From Hydrogenophaga sp. (GTDB lineage Bacteria; Pseudomonadota; Gammaproteobacteria; Burkholderiales; Burkholderiaceae_C), in NCBI GenBank assembly GCA_011390855.1, contig JAABRN010000200.1, positions 1 through 10,962 on the forward strand: DNA of 10,962 nt, given 5' to 3'. The notes under the pieces were generated by a model. The model worked only from the letters and a program-made list of their open reading frames with translations, searched no databases and had not been told where the DNA came from. Shown here piece after piece: positions 3 through 10,962 of this stretch. A program made the translations under genes and the position numbers. Position 1 is the first letter of the stretch; each line of letters opens with the position of its first letter.

Positions 3-1517
3 CCGCAGGCACACCAACAGTTGCCCAGCCCATCGGACTGGACCTTTGAACTGATCGAAACCTACCACGCTGAAATTGCAAAGACCGCCAGCAGTTTCGG
101 CCTGGACGTGTACCCCAACCAACTGGAGGTGATCACCGCAGAGCAAATGATGGACGCCTACTCCAGCGTCGGCATGCCCATGCTTTATCGCCACTGGTCT
201 TACGGCAAGCAGTTCATCAGCACGGAAAAGAACTACCGGCGCGGCCACATGGGCCTTGCCTATGAGATCGTCATCAATTCCGACCCCTGCATCGCCTACC
301 TGATGGAGGAAAACACGCTGGCCATGCAGGCACTGGTCATCGCCCATGCAGCCTATGGGCACAACAGTTTTTTCAAGGGCAACTACCTTTTCCGCATGTG
401 GACCGATGCGTCGTCCATCATCGACTACCTGGTCTATGCGCGGCACTACATCGCCGAATGCGAAGAACGCCACGGCATGGAAGCCGTCGAAGAAATCCTC
501 GACTCCTGTCACGCATTGATGAACCATGGCGTGGACCGGTACCGGCGCCCCCAGAAGCGCTCACTGGCGCAGGAAAGCGCGCAGCGTGAAGAACGCGAGC
601 GCCATCTTCAGCAGCAGGTGAATGACCTTTGGCGCACTTTGCCGCGCCGCGAAGGCCAGAACACTGAGAGCAATGCCTTGAGGCGCTTCCCTGAGGAGTC
701 ACAGGAAAACATCCTCTACTTCATCGAAAAAAATGCCCCCTTGCTCGAGCCCTGGCAGCGCGAAGTGGTTCGCATCGTGAGAAAGGTCGCGCAGTACTTC
801 TACCCCCAGCGCCAGACCCAGGTCATGAACGAAGGGTGGGCCACGTTCTGGCACTACACCTTGCTCAACTCCATGTACGACCGGGGCCTGCTGGCCGATG
901 GCTTCATGATGGAGTGGCTGAGCTCACACACCAGCGTGATCTTCCAGCCACCTGTTGGCCACCGAGCTTACAGTGGCATCAACCCCTACGCACTCGGCTT
1001 CGCGATGTTCACCGACTTGCGACGCATCTGCGAGAACCCCACCGAAGAAGACCGCCGATGGTTTCCAGACATTGCAGGCAGCGACTGGATCAAGACGCTG
1101 GACCACGCGATGCGCAACTACAAGGACGAAAGCTTTGTGGGGCAGTTCCTCAGCCCCAAAGTCATGCGGGACTTCCGGCTTTTCGCGATTCACGACGATG
1201 AAAAGGCGCTCGAGCTCGAAGTGTCAGCCATTCATGACGACAATGGTTACCGGGCACTGCGCGAATCTCTGTCTCACCAGTACGACATCGGCAGCAGAGA
1301 ACCCGACATCCAGGTCTGGAACGTCAATGTTCGCGGTGACCGTGCCTTGACGCTGCGCCACACCCAGCGCAACGGCATGCCCATGAACGAAGCCACGGCT
1401 GAAGTGCTCAAGCATGTGTCCCGCCTGTGGGGGTTTGACGTGCATCTCGAGAGTGTGGACAGCGGTGGCGCTGTACAACGGAGCTGGCAGGTGCCTGCGC
1501 CCTCTCATCGCCACTGA
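3..1517 (+). CDS. SpoVR family protein, 5' end outside the window
   Basis: Member of the SpoVR/YcgB family (stage V sporulation protein R-like), a widespread proteobacterial protein of unclear biochemistry. In Bacillus it acts in spore cortex formation; in proteobacteria it normally accompanies the PrkA-type kinase (YeaG) and YeaH in a stress/stationary-phase cluster, which I would expect just left of this window. About 500 residues are visible, close to the family length. Numbered from the TTG at 21, characteristic stretches are AHAAYGHNSFFKGNYLF (about 109-124), FRMWTDASSIIDY (about 124-136), and NEGWATFWHY (270-279), all typical of the family core. The frame is open right back to base 3 and the TTG at 21 has no ribosome binding site, so the true start probably lies upstream. 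It converges on the exonuclease gene, with 91 bases between stops and no clear terminator. Family call is firm; function is not. Confidence 0.93.
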   Translation, partial: PQAHQQLPSPSDWTFELIETYHAEIAKTASSFGLDVYPNQLEVITAEQMMDAYSSVGMPMLYRHWSYGKQFISTEKNYRRGHMGLAYEIVINSDPCIAYLMEENTLAMQALVIAHAAYGHNSFFKGNYLFRMWTDASSIIDYLVYARHYIAECEERHGMEAVEEILDSCHALMNHGVDRYRRPQKRSLAQESAQREERERHLQQQVNDLWRTLPRREGQNTESNALRRFPEESQENILYFIEKNAPLLEPWQREVVRIVRKVAQYFYPQRQTQVMNEGWATFWHYTLLNSMYDRGLLADGFMMEWLSSHTSVIFQPPVGHRAYSGINPYALGFAMFTDLRRICENPTEEDRRWFPDIAGSDWIKTLDHAMRNYKDESFVGQFLSPKVMRDFRLFAIHDDEKALELEVSAIHDDNGYRALRESLSHQYDIGSREPDIQVWNVNVRGDRALTLRHTQRNGMPMNEATAEVLKHVSRLWGFDVHLESVDSGGAVQRSWQVPAPSHRH

Positions 1518-1608
1518 GCCTCTGCGCCTGCTTATTCCACCGCCCTCTTCATCACACCCCGCGCTATCGTTCTGGCCAGTTGAATCCGGTGGCATGCATG
1601 TCGCACGC

Positions 1609-2361
1609 TCAGTGCCACAAGTCCCGCAGAGGGGTCTGCGGTCCGAATCGGTGCGCCACCTGAGCCTGCAAGAGTTCAGCCGAGGCCAGCGAGTCGGACA
1701 AGGCATGGTGCAGGCGATAACGTGGCAGACCGTAGCGCGCCCGGCTGGCCGCCAGCCGGATCGACAGCCGCGGCGGCACAGGCTGCCACAAGCGGCGCCA
1801 CCATGAAGGCAGTGGTCGGCGGTGCATGCGAGCCTCCAGCTCCATCGTGTCGATGACCGGAAATTCGATGCCCTCGCCGATGCGCCGTCGCAGGGCCTGG
1901 TCCAGGAACTGGCGCTCGATATCCCGGCAATGCACCACCATCACCTGGCCCGCCATGATCGACAGCAGTTCGCCCAACAGTTCGTCAAGGTCCGGCGCCT
2001 GAAGCAACTGCTGGTGCGTGATGCCGTGAAAGGTGACTGCCTCGTCGGCCAGCGGCACACGCGGCTTGACCAGCCAGTGCCGTCCCTGACTGGCCCATAT
2101 GCGGTCCAGTGACATCGGCACCAGCCCCACGCTCACGATGCCGTCGGTGGCTGGATTGAGCCCGGTCGTCTCCACGTCCAGCGCCAGCAGGGGCACGTGC
2201 TGTAAAGGCGTATCGCCAGACAATGCACCAGCGGCATAGAAGGTCCGCAAGCGGGGATCTCGCGCCGACTGCTGCAAAGCAGAGAAGCGCGCAGGCCAGT
2301 CCAGCACATCGCCGGCCGGATCGGCAGCTTTCGTGTCGCGTAAAAGCCCTGCGTGCAACAT
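1609..2361 (-). CDS. DnaQ-like DEDDh 3'-5' exonuclease
   Basis: A 250-residue protein of the RNase T/DNA polymerase III epsilon-subunit exonuclease superfamily, which removes nucleotides from 3' ends of DNA or RNA by a two-metal mechanism. Exo I is LALDVETTGLNP with D62 and E64. Exo II is VVHCRDIERQFLD (142-154), where the usual Asp of HNxxFD aligns with E149. Exo III is HHALSDSLASAEL with H218 and D223. An extra N-terminal stretch of about 55 residues precedes the domain. It is the last gene of a minus-strand operon: its ATG lies 6 bases after the stop of the cNMP/CBS/DUF294 gene and no good Shine-Dalgarno is seen, so translation is probably coupled. Because it is paired with a signalling protein and not with replication genes, it is more likely an accessory exonuclease (perhaps acting on a nucleotide or RNA) than the replicative proofreading subunit dnaQ. 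Substrate unknown. Confidence 0.9.
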   Translation of the reverse strand: MLHAGLLRDTKAADPAGDVLDWPARFSALQQSARDPRLRTFYAAGALSGDTPLQHVPLLALDVETTGLNPATDGIVSVGLVPMSLDRIWASQGRHWLVKPRVPLADEAVTFHGITHQQLLQAPDLDELLGELLSIMAGQVMVVHCRDIERQFLDQALRRRIGEGIEFPVIDTMELEARMHRRPLPSWWRRLWQPVPPRLSIRLAASRARYGLPRYRLHHALSDSLASAELLQAQVAHRFGPQTPLRDLWH

Positions 2362-2367
2362 GGGGCG

Positions 2368-4251
2368 TCAGCGTGCCGACTGGTGCCGGAACTTCAGGTA
2401 GTCCTGTGCCTGGTCCAATACCAAAAAAGCGTCGCGCAGGCTCTTGCGTTCGAAATCCGACAGGCGCTCGGGCTCCAGGGAGTTGCCGGGTTGCTGACCA
2501 TTCTTCAAATCTTCGGCCTGGGCGCGAAAACGCACAAAGGACAGGAATTCAAGCGCGTCATGCAGGTCGGGTCCGCGCCCCGGAGAGAGCACGCCGGCCT
2601 TGATCACATCATCCAGCCGGTCAAACGAATTGACCGCTTCGGAGCCCACCGACAGCGCATGCACGCGGATCAGGTCGGTGAGCGGCGCGGTGCCGCGTCG
2701 CTTGAGGTTGATACCCGCGCTGTGGCGGCCGTCGGCTTCCAGCACAAAACCCTTGAAGAAGCCCAGTGGTGGTGTGCGCAGCAGAGCATTGCGCGCCATG
2801 CTCGCCAAAAAGCGCGGGTGCTGGCGGGCCTGCCGTGCCATGCCGCGCCGCAGGCTGTCGGCCCAGTCGGTGCGCCCGTGTACGCCGTCCAGGTCGAAGA
2901 AGATGCTGCTGTGTAGCAGACCCTCGGCTGTCGGCTTTTCGATCCAGTCCTTGAAGTAGTCCTGCCACACCCGCAGCGGCTGACGCCAGCGCGGGTTGGT
3001 GGCCATCACGTCACCTGTACACAAGGTGTAGCCACAGCGTGCCAGCCCCTCGGTCACGAAGCGGGCCAGGTTTTCAAAATAGGCGTCATGGCGGGACGGC
3101 TCAAATCGGTTGTCCAGCACCAGCGCGTTGTCCTGGTCGGTCACCAGCCCCTGCTCCTGCCGGGCCATCGAGCCCAGCGCAAGAAAGCAGTAGGGAACAG
3201 GCGGAGGCCCCAGAGACTGCTCTGCCAGCTCCAGCAAGCGCTGCTTGAACGCGCGCCCGATCGCAGACATTGCACTGCCCACCACACGGGCGCTGGCATG
3301 TTCGCCCAAAATACGCAGGAAACTGGTGCGCACTTCTGGCACCAGTGCCTCCAGTTCGTCCACCCCCTGCGCACGGCCTATGCGGCCCACCACGAACAGA
3401 CTGTTGCCAGACTCGAAGCGGATGATGTCGGACAGGGCCACCACCCCCACAGGTCGACCATTCTTCATCACCGGCAAATGGTGCACCTTGTGTCGCAGCA
3501 TGAGGGCCATGGCCTCGAACACCAGCCGGTTGTGTTCGATGGCAATGACCTCGGTGCTCGCGATGTCGACAACGGGCGTGCTCTGCGGCAGGCCCTGTGC
3601 CAGCAGTCGACTGCGCAGATCACGGTCTGTCAGGATGCCAGCCACGCGGCTGGTCGGTGTGCCGTCTTCACCTGCCGGACCACCTTCGTCAACCAATAGC
3701 AGCGACGACACGCCACTGTCGGTCATGCGTCGCGCTGCTTCCTGGGCACTGACGTGAGGCGACAGGGTGACCGGCTCGCGCTCGACCAGGCTGCCCACGA
3801 TGGCAGACAACAAGGTATTGCCTGCCTGCTGGCGCGAGACCGCCTTCTGCAGCCGCGTGCGGTCTTCGATCTCCACCTGGTCGGCAAAGGCCTCGTTACC
3901 CTCGAAGAGCTCGATGAACACAGCCTCAGGCAGCAGGTAAAGCAGCGTGTCTTCCTGAGCCACCGCCGGAAAGCGGACCTTCTTGCGGTGCAGCAGGCCG
4001 AACTCTCCGAAGTAACCGCCTTCGGTCAGGCGGTTGTACAGCGTGTCATCACGCCGGTAAACCTCGACCACGCCGCTGCGAACGATGTGCCAGAACTGTG
4101 CCTCCTCGCCGAATTCGACGATGCGCGTACCGGCCTTGCAGTAGCGCACATCAATGGCTCTGCAAATGCGACTGAGCGTGTCTTCGTCCAGATCCCGGAA
4201 CGGCGTGTGCTGCCTCAGGAACCCGGAGATGTCATGCTGCTCGTCGTCCAT
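2368..4251 (-). CDS. cNMP-binding / CBS-pair / DUF294 nucleotidyltransferase-like signalling protein
   Basis: A 627-residue cytoplasmic multidomain protein. Residues about 10-130 form a cyclic-nucleotide-binding (CAP_ED) fold, with GGYFGEFGLL (78-87) as the phosphate-binding-cassette region. About 155-280 hold two CBS motifs, ending DLRSRL and GVVALSDIIRFE, which usually sense adenine nucleotides. About 310-450 is a DUF294/GlnD-like nucleotidyltransferase, with GSMARQEQGLVTDQDNAL at 360-377: the GS motif plus D372 and D374 as metal ligands. The rest is the helical DUF294 C-terminal domain. The architecture resembles the N-terminal uridylyltransferase logic of GlnD and suggests that a bound nucleotide controls modification of a partner protein, but no target is known. 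It starts 15 bases after the BCCT gene with a GGAG ribosome binding site and precedes the exonuclease by 6 bases. Proteins of this design often sit beside sodium:solute symporters, so a role in controlling the adjacent transporter is a reasonable inference. Confidence 0.93.
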   Translation of the reverse strand: MDDEQHDISGFLRQHTPFRDLDEDTLSRICRAIDVRYCKAGTRIVEFGEEAQFWHIVRSGVVEVYRRDDTLYNRLTEGGYFGEFGLLHRKKVRFPAVAQEDTLLYLLPEAVFIELFEGNEAFADQVEIEDRTRLQKAVSRQQAGNTLLSAIVGSLVEREPVTLSPHVSAQEAARRMTDSGVSSLLLVDEGGPAGEDGTPTSRVAGILTDRDLRSRLLAQGLPQSTPVVDIASTEVIAIEHNRLVFEAMALMLRHKVHHLPVMKNGRPVGVVALSDIIRFESGNSLFVVGRIGRAQGVDELEALVPEVRTSFLRILGEHASARVVGSAMSAIGRAFKQRLLELAEQSLGPPPVPYCFLALGSMARQEQGLVTDQDNALVLDNRFEPSRHDAYFENLARFVTEGLARCGYTLCTGDVMATNPRWRQPLRVWQDYFKDWIEKPTAEGLLHSSIFFDLDGVHGRTDWADSLRRGMARQARQHPRFLASMARNALLRTPPLGFFKGFVLEADGRHSAGINLKRRGTAPLTDLIRVHALSVGSEAVNSFDRLDDVIKAGVLSPGRGPDLHDALEFLSFVRFRAQAEDLKNGQQPGNSLEPERLSDFERKSLRDAFLVLDQAQDYLKFRHQSAR

Positions 4252-4266
4252 GCCAGTCTCCAGCGC

Positions 4267-5898
4267 TTAACCGCTCCTGGGCTCCGAAGCCAGACCCTTG
4301 ACCACAGACACAGTGGCCACCAGCAGCACCACGGCGAAGGGGAAACCGGTCGATACCGCCATGGCCTGCAGGGCCACCAGGCCGCCACCCAGGATCAGCG
4401 CAATCGCCACCAACCCTTCAAACACGCACCAGAATACCCGCTGTGGTGTGGGCGCGTTGATCTTGCCGCCAGCGGAAATCACATCGATCACCAGCGAACC
4501 TGAGTCAGACGACGTCACAAAGAACACCACGACCAGCACGATGGCGATGAACGATGTGATTTGAGCCAAAGGCAGCACATCAAGCATGAGGAAAAGCTGA
4601 AGCGGGAGGTCGGCACCTGCCGCCGCCTGATAGCCATCGTTGACCAGTTGCAGAATGGCCGTGCTACCGAACACGGTCATCCACAAGACGCAGGCCAGTG
4701 AAGGCACGATCAGCACCGACACGATGAACTCACGAACGGTGCGACCGCGCGAGACACGCGCGATGAACATGCCTACAAAAGGTGACCAGGAGATCCACCA
4801 GGCCCAGTAGAAGGCAGTCCAGCCCTGCGAGAAGTTGGCATCATCGCGTCCCACCGGGTTGGCCAGCGCCGGCAGGTACTGCAGATAGGCTCCCAGGTTG
4901 TCAAAGAAGCCGGTCATGATGGCCAGTGTCGGCCCCACCGCGATGACGAACACCAACAGCAGAATGGCGAGCACCATGTTGATCTCGGACAGGCGCTTCA
5001 CGCCAGCATCCAGCCCTGCCAACACAGAGATCAGCGCGATCGCGGTGATACCAATCACCAGCACGATCTGTGTTGTATCGCCCAGCGGCACACCGAACAG
5101 GTGGTTCAGACCCGCTGCCGCCTGCGAAGCACCCAGCCCCAGTGAGGTCGCCAGGCCGAACATGGTGGCAAGCACCGCCAGGATGTCGATCACGTGCCCT
5201 GGCCAGCCCCAGATGCGCTCGCCCAGCAGCGGGTAAAACACCGACCGGATGGTGAGCGGCAGGCCTTTGTTGAAGGAGAACAGCGCCAGTCCCAGGGCCA
5301 GAATGGCGTAGATCGCCCACGGGTGCAGCCCCCAGTGGTAGATGGTGGCCGCCATGGCCAGACGCCTTGCTGCATCGGCATCGCCGGCTGCGGCACCCAG
5401 CGGCGCCCAGTCGGTGCGCACGCCGTCTTCCATGCTCGTGCCACCCATCGCGCTACCAAAGTGCGATAGAGGCTCGGACACCCCATAGAACATCAGTCCG
5501 ATGCCCATGCCCGCTGCAAACAGCATCGAGAACCAGCCCAGGTAGCTGTAGTCCGGCTTGGCCTCGGTGCCACCCAGACGCACTTTACCCAGCGGCGAGA
5601 TGGCCAGGCCGAGGCAAACCAGCACAAAGATGTTCCCTACCCCTATGAAGAACCAGTCCAGGTTGGAAGTCAACCAGCCGCGCAAGGCGGAGAACATCGG
5701 TTCGGCCGATGACTGGAACATCAGTGTCAGAAGCACAAAGGTAATCACCGTCAGGCTCGAGATGGCGAACACCCTGTTGTGTATGTCCAGCCCGAACGGA
5801 CCAACCTTCACCACGATGTTGTCCTGGCCTATGCGGTAGTCCGTGTTGATGGGGTTGACTCTCCCATCCGGCTTCATCGGGTCGTTCGGTTCATTCAT
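4267..5898 (-). CDS. BCCT family betaine/choline/carnitine transporter
   Basis: A 543-residue inner-membrane secondary transporter with about 12 hydrophobic segments, taking up quaternary ammonium or related zwitterionic compounds (glycine betaine, choline, carnitine, possibly DMSP), normally driven by sodium or protons. Family signatures are clear: AAGMGIGLMFYGVSEPL (about 128-144), the helix with the aromatic cage FYWAWWISWSPFVGMF (363-378), and the following RVSRGRTVREF loop. FFVTSSDSGS near the C-terminal third is also typical. The N-terminal tail (about 45 residues) is short, and the protein ends soon after the last helix, so it lacks the long osmosensing C-terminal tail of BetP. The ATG at 5898 is preceded by AGAGGA at a 7-base spacing. 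It leads an operon with the cNMP/CBS/DUF294 protein and the exonuclease, which suggests regulated uptake for nutrition or signalling rather than simple osmoprotection. The actual substrate cannot be read from the sequence. Confidence 0.95.
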   Translation of the reverse strand: MNEPNDPMKPDGRVNPINTDYRIGQDNIVVKVGPFGLDIHNRVFAISSLTVITFVLLTLMFQSSAEPMFSALRGWLTSNLDWFFIGVGNIFVLVCLGLAISPLGKVRLGGTEAKPDYSYLGWFSMLFAAGMGIGLMFYGVSEPLSHFGSAMGGTSMEDGVRTDWAPLGAAAGDADAARRLAMAATIYHWGLHPWAIYAILALGLALFSFNKGLPLTIRSVFYPLLGERIWGWPGHVIDILAVLATMFGLATSLGLGASQAAAGLNHLFGVPLGDTTQIVLVIGITAIALISVLAGLDAGVKRLSEINMVLAILLLVFVIAVGPTLAIMTGFFDNLGAYLQYLPALANPVGRDDANFSQGWTAFYWAWWISWSPFVGMFIARVSRGRTVREFIVSVLIVPSLACVLWMTVFGSTAILQLVNDGYQAAAGADLPLQLFLMLDVLPLAQITSFIAIVLVVVFFVTSSDSGSLVIDVISAGGKINAPTPQRVFWCVFEGLVAIALILGGGLVALQAMAVSTGFPFAVVLLVATVSVVKGLASEPRSG

Positions 5899-6785: not shown

Positions 6786-7649
6786 TCAAGGCGCAAAGGA
6801 CTGCAGAACTGGCATCAACGAGACACGCAGTTTGCCGACGATTGCAGGCAAGGGTTCCAGAGCAAGCCCGTTCTTTCGGAGAAACGCCAGCCACAGGGCC
6901 CGCCGAGAGGCATCGTCCGCAAACTCGTCTGTCAGGCCAACAGGCAACGCATCAGGAACCAGCATGCCGCGGCGTTCGAAAGTTGCCCTGATCGCCTGGG
7001 CCAGCAAGCCGGCGTCCAGGGTTTCCCTGTCCAGAAGCACCGACAGATCGAAGTAGTCCTTGAGGCGGCTGTTCGTCATGCCCAGCATGGCGATGGCATG
7101 GAGCTTTTCCGCGATGACCGTGTATTTCGGGTAGACCCGCAGCCTTGGCGCGGGCAGATCATCCAGCAGCACCGGGTAGACCGATTCCACTGGCGCCGGC
7201 GTGACCGCATCACCGAATCCGACGTCGATCTGGGTCTTGCATCGTGCCCGGGCCAGATCGCCTGCGACGATCACGCGCACGCCGCCGTACCCAGCTTCCT
7301 TTCTGATTTCCTCGACCGTGACCGAGGCCGGATCGAACACGATCCCGTCATCGACCAACACGGCTGCAATGTCACGGAAGGCCTGGGCGACCGAGTCCAG
7401 ATCGCTGGCACCGAAGCCGAGCAGATCGGCATCGCGCGTGGCCCTGTGCGGCATGTCGTACCAGAGCGTGAACAGCAGCGCACCCTTCAGCAGGAAGCGA
7501 TCCGCGTGCGGTGACTGGGTCATCCGGTAGAGGATGCGCTCCAGGGCGAAGCGCACCAGCACCTGGTTGAAATCGACGCCCTGCGCCTTGGCCAGGTTGA
7601 GCAGGCGTGCTCGGACGGAGGCGGCCACGTTTGGACCGACAGCGCTCAT
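6786..7649 (-). CDS. abiEii: AbiEii/AbiGii family nucleotidyltransferase toxin
   Basis: Toxin half of an AbiE type IV toxin-antitoxin pair (COG2253), 287 residues. AbiEii-type proteins are DNA polymerase-beta-fold nucleotidyltransferases; characterised relatives bind GTP or transfer nucleotides to tRNA, stop growth reversibly, and can abort phage infection. Family motifs: FLLKGALLFTLWYDM followed by RATRDADLLGFG (the K-G and DxD nucleotidyltransferase core), KTQIDVGFGD carrying the third acidic position, and YPKYTVIAEKLHAIAM followed by NSRLKDYFDLSVLL, the conserved AEKLHA/KDYYDL block. I place the start at the ATG at 7649, giving MSAVGPNVAASVRARLLNLA, because it overlaps the antitoxin stop by four bases (ATGA) as in coupled TA operons. 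An in-frame start 15 codons upstream would lie well inside the antitoxin gene and is less likely. All catalytic motifs appear intact, so the toxin is probably active. Confidence 0.92.
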   Translation of the reverse strand: MSAVGPNVAASVRARLLNLAKAQGVDFNQVLVRFALERILYRMTQSPHADRFLLKGALLFTLWYDMPHRATRDADLLGFGASDLDSVAQAFRDIAAVLVDDGIVFDPASVTVEEIRKEAGYGGVRVIVAGDLARARCKTQIDVGFGDAVTPAPVESVYPVLLDDLPAPRLRVYPKYTVIAEKLHAIAMLGMTNSRLKDYFDLSVLLDRETLDAGLLAQAIRATFERRGMLVPDALPVGLTDEFADDASRRALWLAFLRKNGLALEPLPAIVGKLRVSLMPVLQSFAP

Positions 7650-8251
7650 CCGATGCTCTCCAGGTACGGCCGCATCACGTTGGCCACCCGGCAAACCTTG
7701 GCATAGCGCCAGATCTCGTCCACCGAAGCCTTGTTGCGGGAACGCACGTCCTTGAGTGCCTCCAGCGCCACGTCGAGGCCGATCTTGTTCCGGTGCTTGA
7801 AACAGTCCGCCACGGTCTTGGCCACGCCGTAGACCCGCAGCCTGACACCATCGCGTTCAACTTCTTCGACCCCTGCTGAATAGGCCTCGCCCGTGAACTG
7901 CACCATCTTGATCGGCGGGTAGTCGATCCGGGGTGGGTGGCTGCCGCGTGGCATGGCGATCCAGACCTGGCGCGGCAGCTGGGTGGTCAGCTCGTGGAAC
8001 TGCAGTGCGGTGAGCAGGCAGAACACGGCCTGTGGCACCTTTGCTGCGACTGTGCCAAGGCTCTCGAACTCAGACACCTGTGCATCTGGCAGGCGATAAA
8101 GGCCACGCCCGACCCGCTCCAGCAGTCCAGCGGCATTCAGCCGCGTGAGGACGACCCGTGGTGCATCGATCGCATCCAGGTCGCTGGCGCGCAGAAGCCC
8201 TCTCTGGCCAACCAGATCAAGGACACGCTGGGTGTGGGTTTCGGAAAGCAT
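7646..8251 (-). CDS. abiEi: AbiEi family antitoxin and transcriptional repressor
   Basis: Antitoxin half of the AbiE pair, 201 residues. An N-terminal winged-helix domain (about 1-55: RVLDLVGQRGLLRASDLDAI then RVVLTRLNAAGLLERVGRGLY) is followed by the AbiEi C-terminal domain (about 70-195), with VFCLLTALQFHELTTQLP and VAKTVADCFKHRNKIGLDVA as typical blocks. In characterised systems the C-terminal domain neutralises AbiEii without forming a stable complex (hence type IV), and the N-terminal domain represses its own promoter by binding inverted repeats. A long imperfect palindrome begins 9 bases upstream of this start codon, as expected for autoregulation. The ATG at 8251 has only a weak GGAA upstream, but no better in-frame start exists. 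Its stop overlaps the toxin start by four bases. Confidence 0.92.
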   Translation of the reverse strand: MLSETHTQRVLDLVGQRGLLRASDLDAIDAPRVVLTRLNAAGLLERVGRGLYRLPDAQVSEFESLGTVAAKVPQAVFCLLTALQFHELTTQLPRQVWIAMPRGSHPPRIDYPPIKMVQFTGEAYSAGVEEVERDGVRLRVYGVAKTVADCFKHRNKIGLDVALEALKDVRSRNKASVDEIWRYAKVCRVANVMRPYLESIG

Positions 8252-8693: not shown

Positions 8694-9572
8694 ATGGCGA
8701 GACGCAAGAAATCCAGCACGGCCGACGACCTGCTGGAACTGGTGGCGATGCTGCCCTGGTGGGCCGGCGTGTTGCTGGCGCTGGTGAGCTACTTCGCGCT
8801 TTACAACATCGCATCCCAACCAATGGTGGCGCCCACGCAGCCAGGACAAATGGACACGATGGTCACGCAGTCGATCTGGAGGTCGCTGACCACTATTGGC
8901 CAGTACTTCGTTTCCTTCGTTTGCTTGCTGGGTGCGATCATGTCTGCTTGGCGACGCCGTGAGCGAAAGAACCTAGTTGTTGATGTGGCCAGGAGCCAGG
9001 CGACCGATGCGCTCGACGGCATGAGCTGGCGTGAGTTCGAAATGCTGGTGGGGGAAGGCTTTCGCCTGCAGGGCTACCTGGTGGTGGAAACCGGGGGCGG
9101 TGGTGCCGACGGCGGCGTGGACCTCGTGCTCACCAAGCCGGGTAAGAGCGGCGGCGAGAAATTTCTTGTGCAATGCAAGCAGTGGCGCGCCTACAAGGTG
9201 GGCGTGGACGTGGTGCGCGAGCTGTACGGGGTGATGGCTGCAAAGGGCGCCACCGGCGGGTTCGTGGTGACCTCGGGGCGGTTCACCGAGGAGGCGATCA
9301 GCTTTGCCAGCGGCCGCAACGTGACGCTGGTTGATGGGCCGAAGCTGCACGGGCTGCTGCGGCAAGCTCAGGCGGCTGCCGATCGGTCGCCTGCCCAGAA
9401 GCCTGCTGCGCCGATGGCTCACTCCCCTGCTCCATCAGCCCAGTCACTGGCTTGCCCTCTGTGCGCGAAACCCATGGTTCGGCGCACCGCCAAACGCGGC
9501 GTCAATGCCGGCAACGAGTTCTGGGGCTGCAACGGCTATCCGAACTGCCGTGGCACGCGCCCGATCAACTGA
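8694..9572 (+). CDS. Membrane-anchored Mrr-type restriction endonuclease with C-terminal zinc finger
   Basis: A 292-residue protein. A basic N-terminus (MARRKK) precedes two hydrophobic segments, about 17-40 and 66-86, so it is likely held in the inner membrane with the following domain in the cytoplasm (RRRERK after the second helix). Residues about 108-218 are a restriction-endonuclease Mrr-like PD-(D/E)xK domain: SWREFEMLVGEGFRLQGY, GGGADGGVDLVL with D143, FLVQCKQW with the Q160-C-K162 catalytic pair, and GATGGFVVTSGRFTEEA. A flexible Pro/Ala/Ser linker leads to a topoisomerase-type C4 zinc ribbon with C254, C257, C279 and C285. Mrr-like enzymes cut modified or foreign DNA without needing a partner methylase; none is seen nearby. 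It lies 14 bases before the PLD-helicase and is very probably co-transcribed with it. The target is unknown; a general DNA-quality or plasmid/phage restriction role is inferred. Confidence 0.9.
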   Translation: MARRKKSSTADDLLELVAMLPWWAGVLLALVSYFALYNIASQPMVAPTQPGQMDTMVTQSIWRSLTTIGQYFVSFVCLLGAIMSAWRRRERKNLVVDVARSQATDALDGMSWREFEMLVGEGFRLQGYLVVETGGGGADGGVDLVLTKPGKSGGEKFLVQCKQWRAYKVGVDVVRELYGVMAAKGATGGFVVTSGRFTEEAISFASGRNVTLVDGPKLHGLLRQAQAAADRSPAQKPAAPMAHSPAPSAQSLACPLCAKPMVRRTAKRGVNAGNEFWGCNGYPNCRGTRPIN

Positions 9573-9586
9573 CTCCAAGGACAACG

Positions 9587-10962
9587 ATGGCATTGCCCGA
9601 TGGCCTCTATGACCTGTTGTTGACCGAGGGGCTTGCCCGATCACTGGCCACCCTCGACTCGTCACGTGCCGATGTGTCGGCGCTCAGAGGTGGGGCAGCC
9701 GAGTTCCTGGCCGATGTCATCACCCGCCAGCTCTCGACGATCCTCGACGATGTGTCTGGCGACGAGGCAGAGAAAGCCAAACGGCAACTCGAACTGGTGA
9801 ATGGGTTGCTGGTGATGCTGCGTCAGCGGCTCGCCGGAAGCAGCGCGGACGTTGCCTCTGCGGCTGGCGAAGTGGTGGACCTGGTGGCGCCGCCGTTGCG
9901 GGTCCTGAGGGCAGTGCAGCGCGACCAGCAGTTCCCAGTGTCGCCAGAGATTGGGCTGGGCGTGCCCTGGCTGTTCACGGCCGGCAAAGGCTCGCCTTCC
10001 CTGCTGCAGGAGATTCGCCGTGAGCTGGCATCGAGCGATCAGGTGGACATCCTGGTCAGCTTCATCACCGTCTCTGGCGTGCGCAAGCTGCAGGATGTGC
10101 TGCAACAGATCACGGCCAAGGGTGCGCAGCAAGATGGACAGGCGCAACCGAAGACCCGGCTGCGCATCCTCACCACAACGTACACGGGTGCAACGGAGGC
10201 CCGGGCGCTGGACGAGCTCGCGCGTCTGCCGGGCTGTGAGGTCCGCGTGTCGCTGGATGGCCGGCGCACCCGGCTGCATGCCAAGGCCTGGCTGTTCCAG
10301 CGCAGGACCGGTTTTGGTTCGGCGTATGTCGGCAGCGCCAACCTCTCGGGAGCCGCACTGACAGGCGGACTGGAATGGACCGTCAAGCTGACCCAGCGCG
10401 CGCAGGAGGCGCTGTTCGCACGCGCCGTGGCCCACTTCGAGACGCTGTGGGCGGACAGCGAGTTTCAGCGCTACGACCCGGACAACGTCGAACACCGGCA
10501 GGCACTGGCGGCGGCGTTGGGTCGCGAGTCATTTGGTGGCGAACCCTCTGCAACGATCAGCTTCTTCGACCTGCAGCCCAAGACCTACCAGTTGGAAATG
10601 CTGGAGCAGTTGAGCACCGAGCGTGCCCACGGTCGAACCCGAAACCTGCTGGTGGCGGCCACCGGCACGGGCAAGACGGTGGTGGCCGCGTTCGACTACC
10701 GGAACACCTGCCGCATCGAGGGTGGGCGCCCTCGCCTGCTGTTTGTGGCCCACCGGGAGGAAATCCTGCGGCAGGCCATGCGCACCTACCGCGAGGTGCT
10801 GCGCGATCCCGAGTTCGGCGATCTGCTCACGGGAAGTCATCAACCCGAGCGCTGGGACCACCTGTTCGCCACCATCGACAGCGTGACCAGCCGCGACCTG
10901 GTGGCCACCGTTGGTGCCGACCACTGGCACACGGTGGTGGTGGATGAATGCCACCGCCTGGC
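9587..10962 (+). CDS. PLD-nuclease/superfamily 2 helicase fusion, 3' end outside the window
   Basis: Frame open from the ATG at 9587 to the window end (458 codons seen), preceded by AAGGA with a 6-base spacing. Residues 1-115 are helical and unrecognised. About 120-290 is a phospholipase D-type (HKD) nuclease domain: RLHAKAWLF with H231 and K233, then YVGSANLSGAAL with N252. Only one HKD motif is present, so it would act as a dimer. About 325 onward is a superfamily 2 helicase: Q335 in a Q-motif-like FDLQPKTYQLEML, Walker A ATGTGKT (358-364), motif Ia LLFVAHREEILRQA (384-397), TIDSV, and motif II VVVDECH (D453, E454), a DECH variant of DEAH. Known relatives with this order continue with a second RecA-like domain and often a DUF3427 C-terminus; neither can be seen here. 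It probably unwinds and cuts DNA in defence or repair, together with the upstream nuclease. Confidence 0.9.
   Translation, partial: MALPDGLYDLLLTEGLARSLATLDSSRADVSALRGGAAEFLADVITRQLSTILDDVSGDEAEKAKRQLELVNGLLVMLRQRLAGSSADVASAAGEVVDLVAPPLRVLRAVQRDQQFPVSPEIGLGVPWLFTAGKGSPSLLQEIRRELASSDQVDILVSFITVSGVRKLQDVLQQITAKGAQQDGQAQPKTRLRILTTTYTGATEARALDELARLPGCEVRVSLDGRRTRLHAKAWLFQRRTGFGSAYVGSANLSGAALTGGLEWTVKLTQRAQEALFARAVAHFETLWADSEFQRYDPDNVEHRQALAAALGRESFGGEPSATISFFDLQPKTYQLEMLEQLSTERAHGRTRNLLVAATGTGKTVVAAFDYRNTCRIEGGRPRLLFVAHREEILRQAMRTYREVLRDPEFGDLLTGSHQPERWDHLFATIDSVTSRDLVATVGADHWHTVVVDECHRL

Follow-up and report, generated by a model that had tools for sequence, protein, structure and literature searches.

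We describe two adjacent genes at the end of a 10,962 nucleotide (nt) stretch of Hydrogenophaga sp. DNA (GenBank assembly GCA_011390855.1, contig JAABRN010000200.1; hereafter the window), an entire contig (G000:C190). The assembly measures 2.39 Mb and has a completeness rating of 55%. The second of the two genes (gene 2, a PLD-helicase gene; window protein P0002) encodes what is, by its sequence, a type IV restriction enzyme of the SauUSI type, and adds one more member to a family already known. Directly upstream stands a gene for an Mrr-type nuclease with a predicted membrane anchor (gene 1, the TM-Mrr gene; protein P0001). The reading that we favour, with a probability of roughly 0.75, is that a known type IV enzyme has been joined by an optional and independent nuclease, predicted to sit in the membrane, which was recruited once as a second restriction layer. 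As a pair under selection, the two genes are met repeatedly in Hydrogenophaga and in certain other Burkholderiales. Compared with known restriction systems this is a modest variation, in which what appears new is the two-gene arrangement; this arrangement was not found in the literature searched, which consisted of open-licence papers only.

Domains and catalytic residues of the two proteins

The window carries only 458 of the about 1058 codons of gene 2, the frame of which is still open at position 10960, two bases short of the contig end, so that the 3' part is cut off. The window protein has Pfam matches to PLDc_2, ResIII and DEAD, matches the PADLOC model mREase_IV (PDLC03659) with an E-value (E) of 1.2e-87, and in the PDB has 7clg as its sole strong match (E 2.1e-23), the only other match being 3h1t (E 0.0064). 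Entry 7clg is a chain of 953 residues named "putative helicase", which we take to be SauUSI. Both the chain length of 953 and the HxKx4E motif at residues 119-126 agree with the account in PMC7913695. For the part of gene 2 beyond the contig end a complete relative of 1058 residues was used (P0003, L006:8001-11174), which is 98% identical to the window protein over the comparable 458 residues. Pfam domains in P0003 are ResIII, Helicase_C and, at residues 906-1052, DUF3427 (E 1.2e-18), while PLDc_2 falls just below the Pfam cut-off (25.5 versus 27 bits; the window protein scores 27.6 bits). The mREase_IV model covers residues 128-1049 of P0003 (E 3.6e-199), and 7clg aligns with residues 137-758 (E 2e-65, or 1e-86 with a 14-row profile), an alignment which spans both halves of the motor. 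Residues H231, K233, N252 and E263, the counterparts in the alignment of HxK, N and E in the PLD site of 7clg, do not vary in any of the 14 rows, all of which also keep the motor residue K363. The hallmarks of a SauUSI-type enzyme were found together, namely an N-terminal PLD domain with the HxK...N...E residues, a superfamily 2 (SF2) translocase after it and, in P0003, a C-terminal DUF3427. No methylase or specificity subunit accompanies them, as expected since type IV enzymes need neither. Elsewhere in the same genome there is a second SauUSI-like gene (L064; G000:C173:1262-3925, plus strand), 41% identical and apparently also cut by a contig end.

Gene 1 has the Mrr_cat fold and the active site of Mrr-like PD-(D/E)xK nucleases. 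Conservation was assessed in an alignment of 42 rows, composed of the eight paired proteins described below and of 34 of the 36 stand-alone loci tried (L021-L045 and L067-L077), these 34 being the ones whose match exceeds 250 residues; L046-L049 and L078-L084 do not belong to this set. In this alignment E116 and D143 are kept in 42/42 rows, K162 in 41/42 and each of the zinc cysteines in 41 or 42; Q160 is invariant in a separate 11-row alignment but falls short of the 95% conservation level in the 42 rows. An AlphaFold model of the protein, with a mean predicted local distance difference test score (pLDDT) of 73, contains a PD-(D/E)xK nuclease domain and helices at residues 9-19, 22-40 and 53-100. 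The best PDB matches of this model were the modification-dependent enzymes MspJI (E 1.4e-5, TM-score 0.30) and AspBHI (E 3.2e-5, TM-score 0.34), the scores being taken over the whole query, and the PADLOC model for ZorD also matches P0001 (E 2.9e-10). The Mrr_N winged helix by which EcoKMrr is recognised is absent among the Pfam matches of gene 1, and hydrophobic stretches are found there instead; positively charged residues before the first and after the second of these stretches suggest that the nuclease would lie on the cytoplasmic side.

An earlier note on this DNA, written from the sequence alone, had placed the two genes 14 bases apart beside an AbiE pair and had singled out D143 and K162 in gene 1 and H231 (in HAK) and K363 in gene 2. 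The positions of both open reading frames (ORFs) and the gap were confirmed (Table 1), and all four residues proved correct and conserved in relatives; the zinc ribbon of gene 1, on which the note was silent, was found in addition. The AbiE pair is genuine too (PADLOC, AbiEi E 6.8e-93 and AbiEii E 1.5e-100) but local to the window. AbiE was rejected as a part of the module: among the loci compared, AbiEi and AbiEii matched only the window's own DNA (L001, L054). The remaining genes of the window, at 3-5898, are ordinary ones: SpoVR (plus strand), then an RNase_T-type exonuclease, a cNMP-CBS-DUF294 protein and a BCCT transporter (all minus strand).

Table 1. Positions in the window of the two genes, their predicted domains and the neighbouring AbiE pair
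Feature	Position	Strand	Details
AbiEii/AbiEi pair	6786-8251	-	divergent from the Mrr gene
TM-Mrr gene (gene 1)	8694..9572	+	ATG 8694 to TGA 9572, 292 aa; predicted two-stretch anchor, Mrr_cat PD-(D/E)xK and topoisomerase-type zinc ribbon
Membrane stretch 1 (predicted)	8733..8813	+	about residues 14-40; Kyte-Doolittle hydropathy (around 13-40), helix in AlphaFold model
Membrane stretch 2 (predicted)	8871..8948	+	about residues 60-85; Kyte-Doolittle hydropathy (around 61-85), AlphaFold model
Mrr_cat domain	9012..9356	+	residues 107-221, E 2.9e-33; active-site E116, D143, Q160, K162
Zn_ribbon_Top1	9453..9566	+	residues 254-291, E 1e-9; C254, C257, C279, C285
Intergenic gap, 14 nt	9573..9586	+	ribosome-binding-site-like AAGGA at 9577-9581
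Gene 2 (SauUSI-like type IV restriction enzyme gene), first 458 codons	9587..10962	+	start ATG 9587
PLD nuclease domain	9995..10450	+	residues about 137-288; H231, K233, N252, E263
SF2 motor, N-terminal half (ResIII)	10571..10960	+	GTGKT 360-364, DECH 453-456

Conservation and decay of the tandem

A genome scan for gene 2 with short peptide patterns taken from the query, a method which favours close relatives, returned 18 loci. An intact TM-Mrr ORF lies directly upstream in seven of these (L003, L004, L005, L006, L008, L009 and L010), which together with the window gives eight intact pairs, and the gap between the genes is 14 nt in seven of the eight and 21 nt in L010. The ratio of nonsynonymous to synonymous substitution rates (dN/dS), computed for the 28 comparisons among these eight loci, was 0.07-0.25 in mrr and 0.06-0.11 in the helicase part; at the protein level mrr evolves faster. 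The synonymous rate itself was broadly alike for both genes in most comparisons, the exception being L003-L004 (0.45 versus 0.24). Both genes are under purifying selection, and the tandem is more than a product of chance.

Among pair loci with differing flanks there is a common block which runs from about 0.9-1.2 kb 5' of the helicase start to about the helicase stop; its upstream part is composed of mrr plus up to about 300 bp, and in some pairs it runs slightly past the helicase stop. Three loci (L003, L005 and L006) share one common transfer RNA (tRNA)-Pro site, L008 and L009 have a downstream HNH gene in common, of which L004 retains a short stretch, and the flanks of L010 and of the window differ from both of these settings. 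When a pair-bearing locus is compared with a solo one, homology mostly begins at or near the ribosome-binding site of the helicase gene. The HNH gene encodes an HNH_2 endonuclease-like protein (domain searched in L008), is shared at the DNA level and is convergent with the SauUSI-like gene (L008:4600-5637 and L009:11146-12120, both on the minus strand).

In the rest of the 18 loci the partner is decayed or not seen, and the two genes are not kept together family-wide. It is decayed in two, L013 being without the 5' part and L015 having only two pieces left, and there is no Mrr upstream in seven (L007, L012, L014, L016, L017, L018 and L019), one of which, L007, carries a solo helicase 90% identical to that of the window. 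As for the last two, none was seen in the 297 nt upstream in L011, and L020 is without the 5' end. A further remnant stands in L051, where the first two dozen or so TM-Mrr codons (L051:4641-5105, minus strand; Mrr-profile E 1.5e-5) precede an open SauUSI-like gene which belongs to another branch, the stop of the scar apparently overlapping the helicase start. This scar points to an older pairing, lost in L051. The helicase genes next to the truncated or fragmented Mrr genes of L013, L015 and L051 are all still open, and among the intact pairs the Mrr of L009 has lost one zinc cysteine. Upstream of the decayed Mrr gene and of the SauUSI-like gene of L015 there is also a CRISPR-like array (L015:4231-6311 and beyond), with 31 repeat copies (37 nt in common by eye) at a spacing of about 70 nt.

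The eight paired Mrr proteins form one clade versus the 34 stand-alone ones (support 99/95), so that a single recruitment of the Mrr gene, out of a family whose members mostly stand alone, is the simplest reading. Since then the gene has been lost or has decayed repeatedly. In the helicase tree paired, decayed and solo copies are intermixed, with 10 of 24 inner branches open.

The range of the tandem is narrow. In a sample of 200 genomes of the family the helicase was found in 13 (E 1e-60), and TM-Mrr and helicase matches occurred together in three (G000, G076 and G160), side by side in the window's own genome G000 (in tandem) and in G160 (divergent, with a distant helicase). The class sample had both in three of 360 genomes (G000, G485 and G500), side by side only in G000, and the phylum sample had the helicase in 18 of 398. 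Apart from the window, no Mrr-profile match lay beside the phylum-sample helicases in the stretches examined, whose flanks reached some 1.5 kb past the match if the contig was long enough. For distant helicases in which the match starts near residue 130 of a longer frame, little or nothing upstream was seen, and a missing partner is weak evidence there. Across all three samples, of which that of the phylum was searched with the helicase alone, no second tandem pair came to light. Distant helicase matches other than that of G160 lie in long open frames, of 1218-1394 residues.

Stand-alone TM-Mrr genes and mobility

TM-Mrr matches (E 1e-20 or better) were present in 37 of the 200 family genomes and in 19 of the 360 class genomes. 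In 26 of the 37 the match starts at residue 19 or before and so includes the anchor, and only two of these 26 have the gene adjoining a helicase gene of the gene 2 kind. Surroundings were analysed by taking 20 regions around TM-Mrr genes, 19 of which yielded 75 neighbouring ORFs (L117, the Mrr of which was missed by ORF calling, was left out). These neighbours match 125 PADLOC families at 1e-8, the best 25 of which include type IIG, type I, GajA, AbiD, mREase_IV, SoFic and PD-T4-1. For comparison, 18 control regions were placed elsewhere on 18 of the 20 contigs (that of L117 included), at positions that were fixed and arbitrary and not drawn at random; their 72 ORFs match three families (mad2, mad3 and DolB). 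The comparison counts families and not proteins, which overstates the contrast, as one GajA-like protein matches many models; moreover, the neighbours include the methyltransferase-PLD-helicase of G160 itself, and mad2 occurs in both test and control. The direction is nonetheless clear, with other defence genes in the vicinity of stand-alone TM-Mrr genes. Some of the latter adjoin ordinary genes, such as a gyrB-like gene in L115 (as read from the start of the ORF). Near another stand-alone TM-Mrr gene there is a GajA-like AAA/TOPRIM gene (L113:2192-5958, minus strand), with a 535-residue Mrr-matching ORF between the two.

This distribution bears on the possibility that the Mrr gene is simply an independent defence gene which happens to be co-located, kept by selection on its own activity and with no functional link to gene 2. 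Such hitchhiking is a real contender, though one that we would not back: the TM-Mrr family is mostly stand-alone and sits amid varied defence genes, and Mrr is repeatedly absent beside the helicase, whereas the exact spacing and the co-directional order are kept in differing surroundings.

In a contig of a viral collection (L140:2648-7550) a TM-Mrr gene lies directly 5' of HsdM (N6_Mtase), HsdS (Methylase_S) and a DUF4268 gene. In G160 the gene is divergent from one for a 1272-residue protein (L107:2998-6816, minus strand) which has a small N-terminal methyltransferase, a PLD domain, an SF2 motor, a weak Peptidase_S24-like match (1009-1125, E 1.9e-5) and DUF3427. If these settings are taken together with that of the window, where TM-Mrr stands 5' of a SauUSI-like gene, TM-Mrr proteins might be membrane-tethered helper nucleases that stand beside different restriction systems and act on DNA reeled in at the inner membrane by the motor of the partner, which would make restriction location-specific; we consider this wider reading rather unlikely.

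Several routes of mobility were considered for the block and set aside. Terminal repeats were looked for at the block ends of four loci: there were none in L004 and L009, and the few in L006 and L010 lie inside the block. Integration associated with tRNA genes is not general, since a tRNA was found in four of the 13 loci tested (tRNA-Pro downstream in L003, L005 and L006, tRNA-Arg upstream in L009), in none of the other nine and not in the window. A phage origin was rejected, the phage collection giving a single short match (116 nt, 75.9%). In IMG/VR, TM-Mrr was present in three contigs and the helicase in one, not together in the stretches examined, and among plasmids 99 records had a TM-Mrr-like and 19 a helicase-like match, none being found in both among the matches listed (40 of the 99 for TM-Mrr).

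Proposed mechanism and relation to known systems

SauUSI is described as a single polypeptide which cuts DNA containing 5-methylcytosine (m5C) or 5-hydroxymethylcytosine (hm5C) in an ATP-dependent manner, with DUF3427 as the proposed recogniser (PMC3874153); in the later account of PMC7913695 this domain has an SRA fold and activates a translocating ATPase, leading to shredding of the DNA by a PLD dimer. By analogy, the C-terminal SRA-like/DUF3427 domain of gene 2 would recognise modified cytosine in foreign DNA, recognition would switch on the SF2 ATPase, which would translocate on duplex DNA, and a dimeric PLD nuclease would then break it. The product of gene 1 would be a separate restriction-type nuclease tethered to the inner membrane, with nuclease and zinc ribbon in the cytoplasm. 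Its gene is probably co-transcribed with gene 2, and it most likely forms an independent and dispensable second layer against DNA arriving at the membrane, presumably that of phages or plasmids.

Several observations weigh against this reading. The E of the SauUSI HxKx4E motif is Q in 12 of the 14 rows and E in two. Beyond residue 758 the likeness to SauUSI is weak (945-1013, 6.3 bits, or 14.6 bits with the profile). The target-recognition part is known from relatives only, the window ending before DUF3427, and the SRA fold was not confirmed, as the full-length AlphaFold model of P0003 was too poor to be used (mean pLDDT 48.7). Because similarity to SauUSI is low in the coupler and recognition region, the m5C specificity may not carry over. 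Finally, the exact spacing of the two genes could mean a real functional coupling.

In its strongest form such a coupling would be an obligate two-component machine, in which the SF2 motor hands DNA to a membrane-held Mrr and both nucleases are required. The 14-nt spacing in seven of eight pairs, the recurrence of the block as a unit and the conservation of active-site residues in both proteins would fit, and the Zorya system, as presented in PMC11890865, offers a precedent for a membrane part working with an Mrr-like nuclease and a helicase, to which the ZorD match of P0001 adds. We nevertheless regard it as quite unlikely because solo helicases exist, that of L007 being a close relative; Mrr is broken beside open helicase genes in three loci, and SauUSI is reported to act as a single polypeptide (PMC3874153). 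The two enzymes may occasionally cooperate. A role in DNA repair, with a RadD-like helicase and a nuclease, is highly improbable, for although RadD (6jde) is the second PDB match of P0003 (motor only, 5.9e-24), the best match by far is 7clg with the PLD domain included, and the distribution is patchy, with recurrence in differing surroundings.

The reading that we favour changes the earlier view of this locus in part. The note had proposed a restriction-like module with a membrane-anchored nuclease, which is supported here as a recurring two-gene block in which the anchor is predicted. Its statement that no named system matched holds for the pair as such and fails for the PLD-helicase, which is of the SauUSI type. 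The suggestion that the helicase feeds DNA to either nuclease is weakened, as close helicase relatives are without Mrr and Mrr is truncated, in pieces or damaged in several loci. The note had itself listed a restriction to close relatives, or a match to a named system, as counting against its idea; the samples searched gave no tandem beyond close relatives, and half of the pair matches a named family. The find thus moves from an unknown system to a named family and to a narrower question: why a stand-alone, probably membrane-anchored nuclease was recruited before a type IV enzyme, with near-exact spacing kept in one lineage and Mrr lost in relatives. If it is true that membrane-tethered nucleases assist translocating restriction enzymes, this would say something about the place in the cell at which incoming DNA comes under attack.

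Among known systems, Zorya (ZorA-ZorB-ZorC-ZorD) likewise combines a membrane component, an Mrr-like nuclease and a helicase, but the present pair has one gene for the nuclease and another for the helicase, and it is the nuclease itself that bears the predicted anchor. No ZorA- or ZorB-like protein was among the eight window proteins scanned, the contig ending inside gene 2; in relatives the neighbours scanned were the HNH_2 gene of L008 and a DUF4238 gene of L003. Gene 1 resembles Mrr- and MspJI-type nucleases in its Mrr_cat domain with E116, D143 and Q160-x-K162 and in its structural match to MspJI and AspBHI. In EcoKMrr this type of nuclease comes with a winged helix and in MspJI with an SRA domain, as given in PMC12707154, whereas gene 1 has a predicted anchor and a topoisomerase-type zinc ribbon. 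The type I restriction-modification genes of L140 also have a TM-Mrr gene directly upstream, with 33 nt between the ORFs, but the partners there are HsdM and HsdS and not a SauUSI-like gene. Gene 2 shares with SauUSI (7clg) a PLD nuclease, an SF2 motor and a C-terminal DUF3427/SRA-type domain, in the same order, as well as the HxK, N and E residues of the PLD site. It differs in having about 100 more residues ahead of the PLD domain, in the usual Q in place of the E of HxKx4E, in a coupler and recognition part that are little alike and, in some members of the family, in the TM-Mrr gene that stands upstream.

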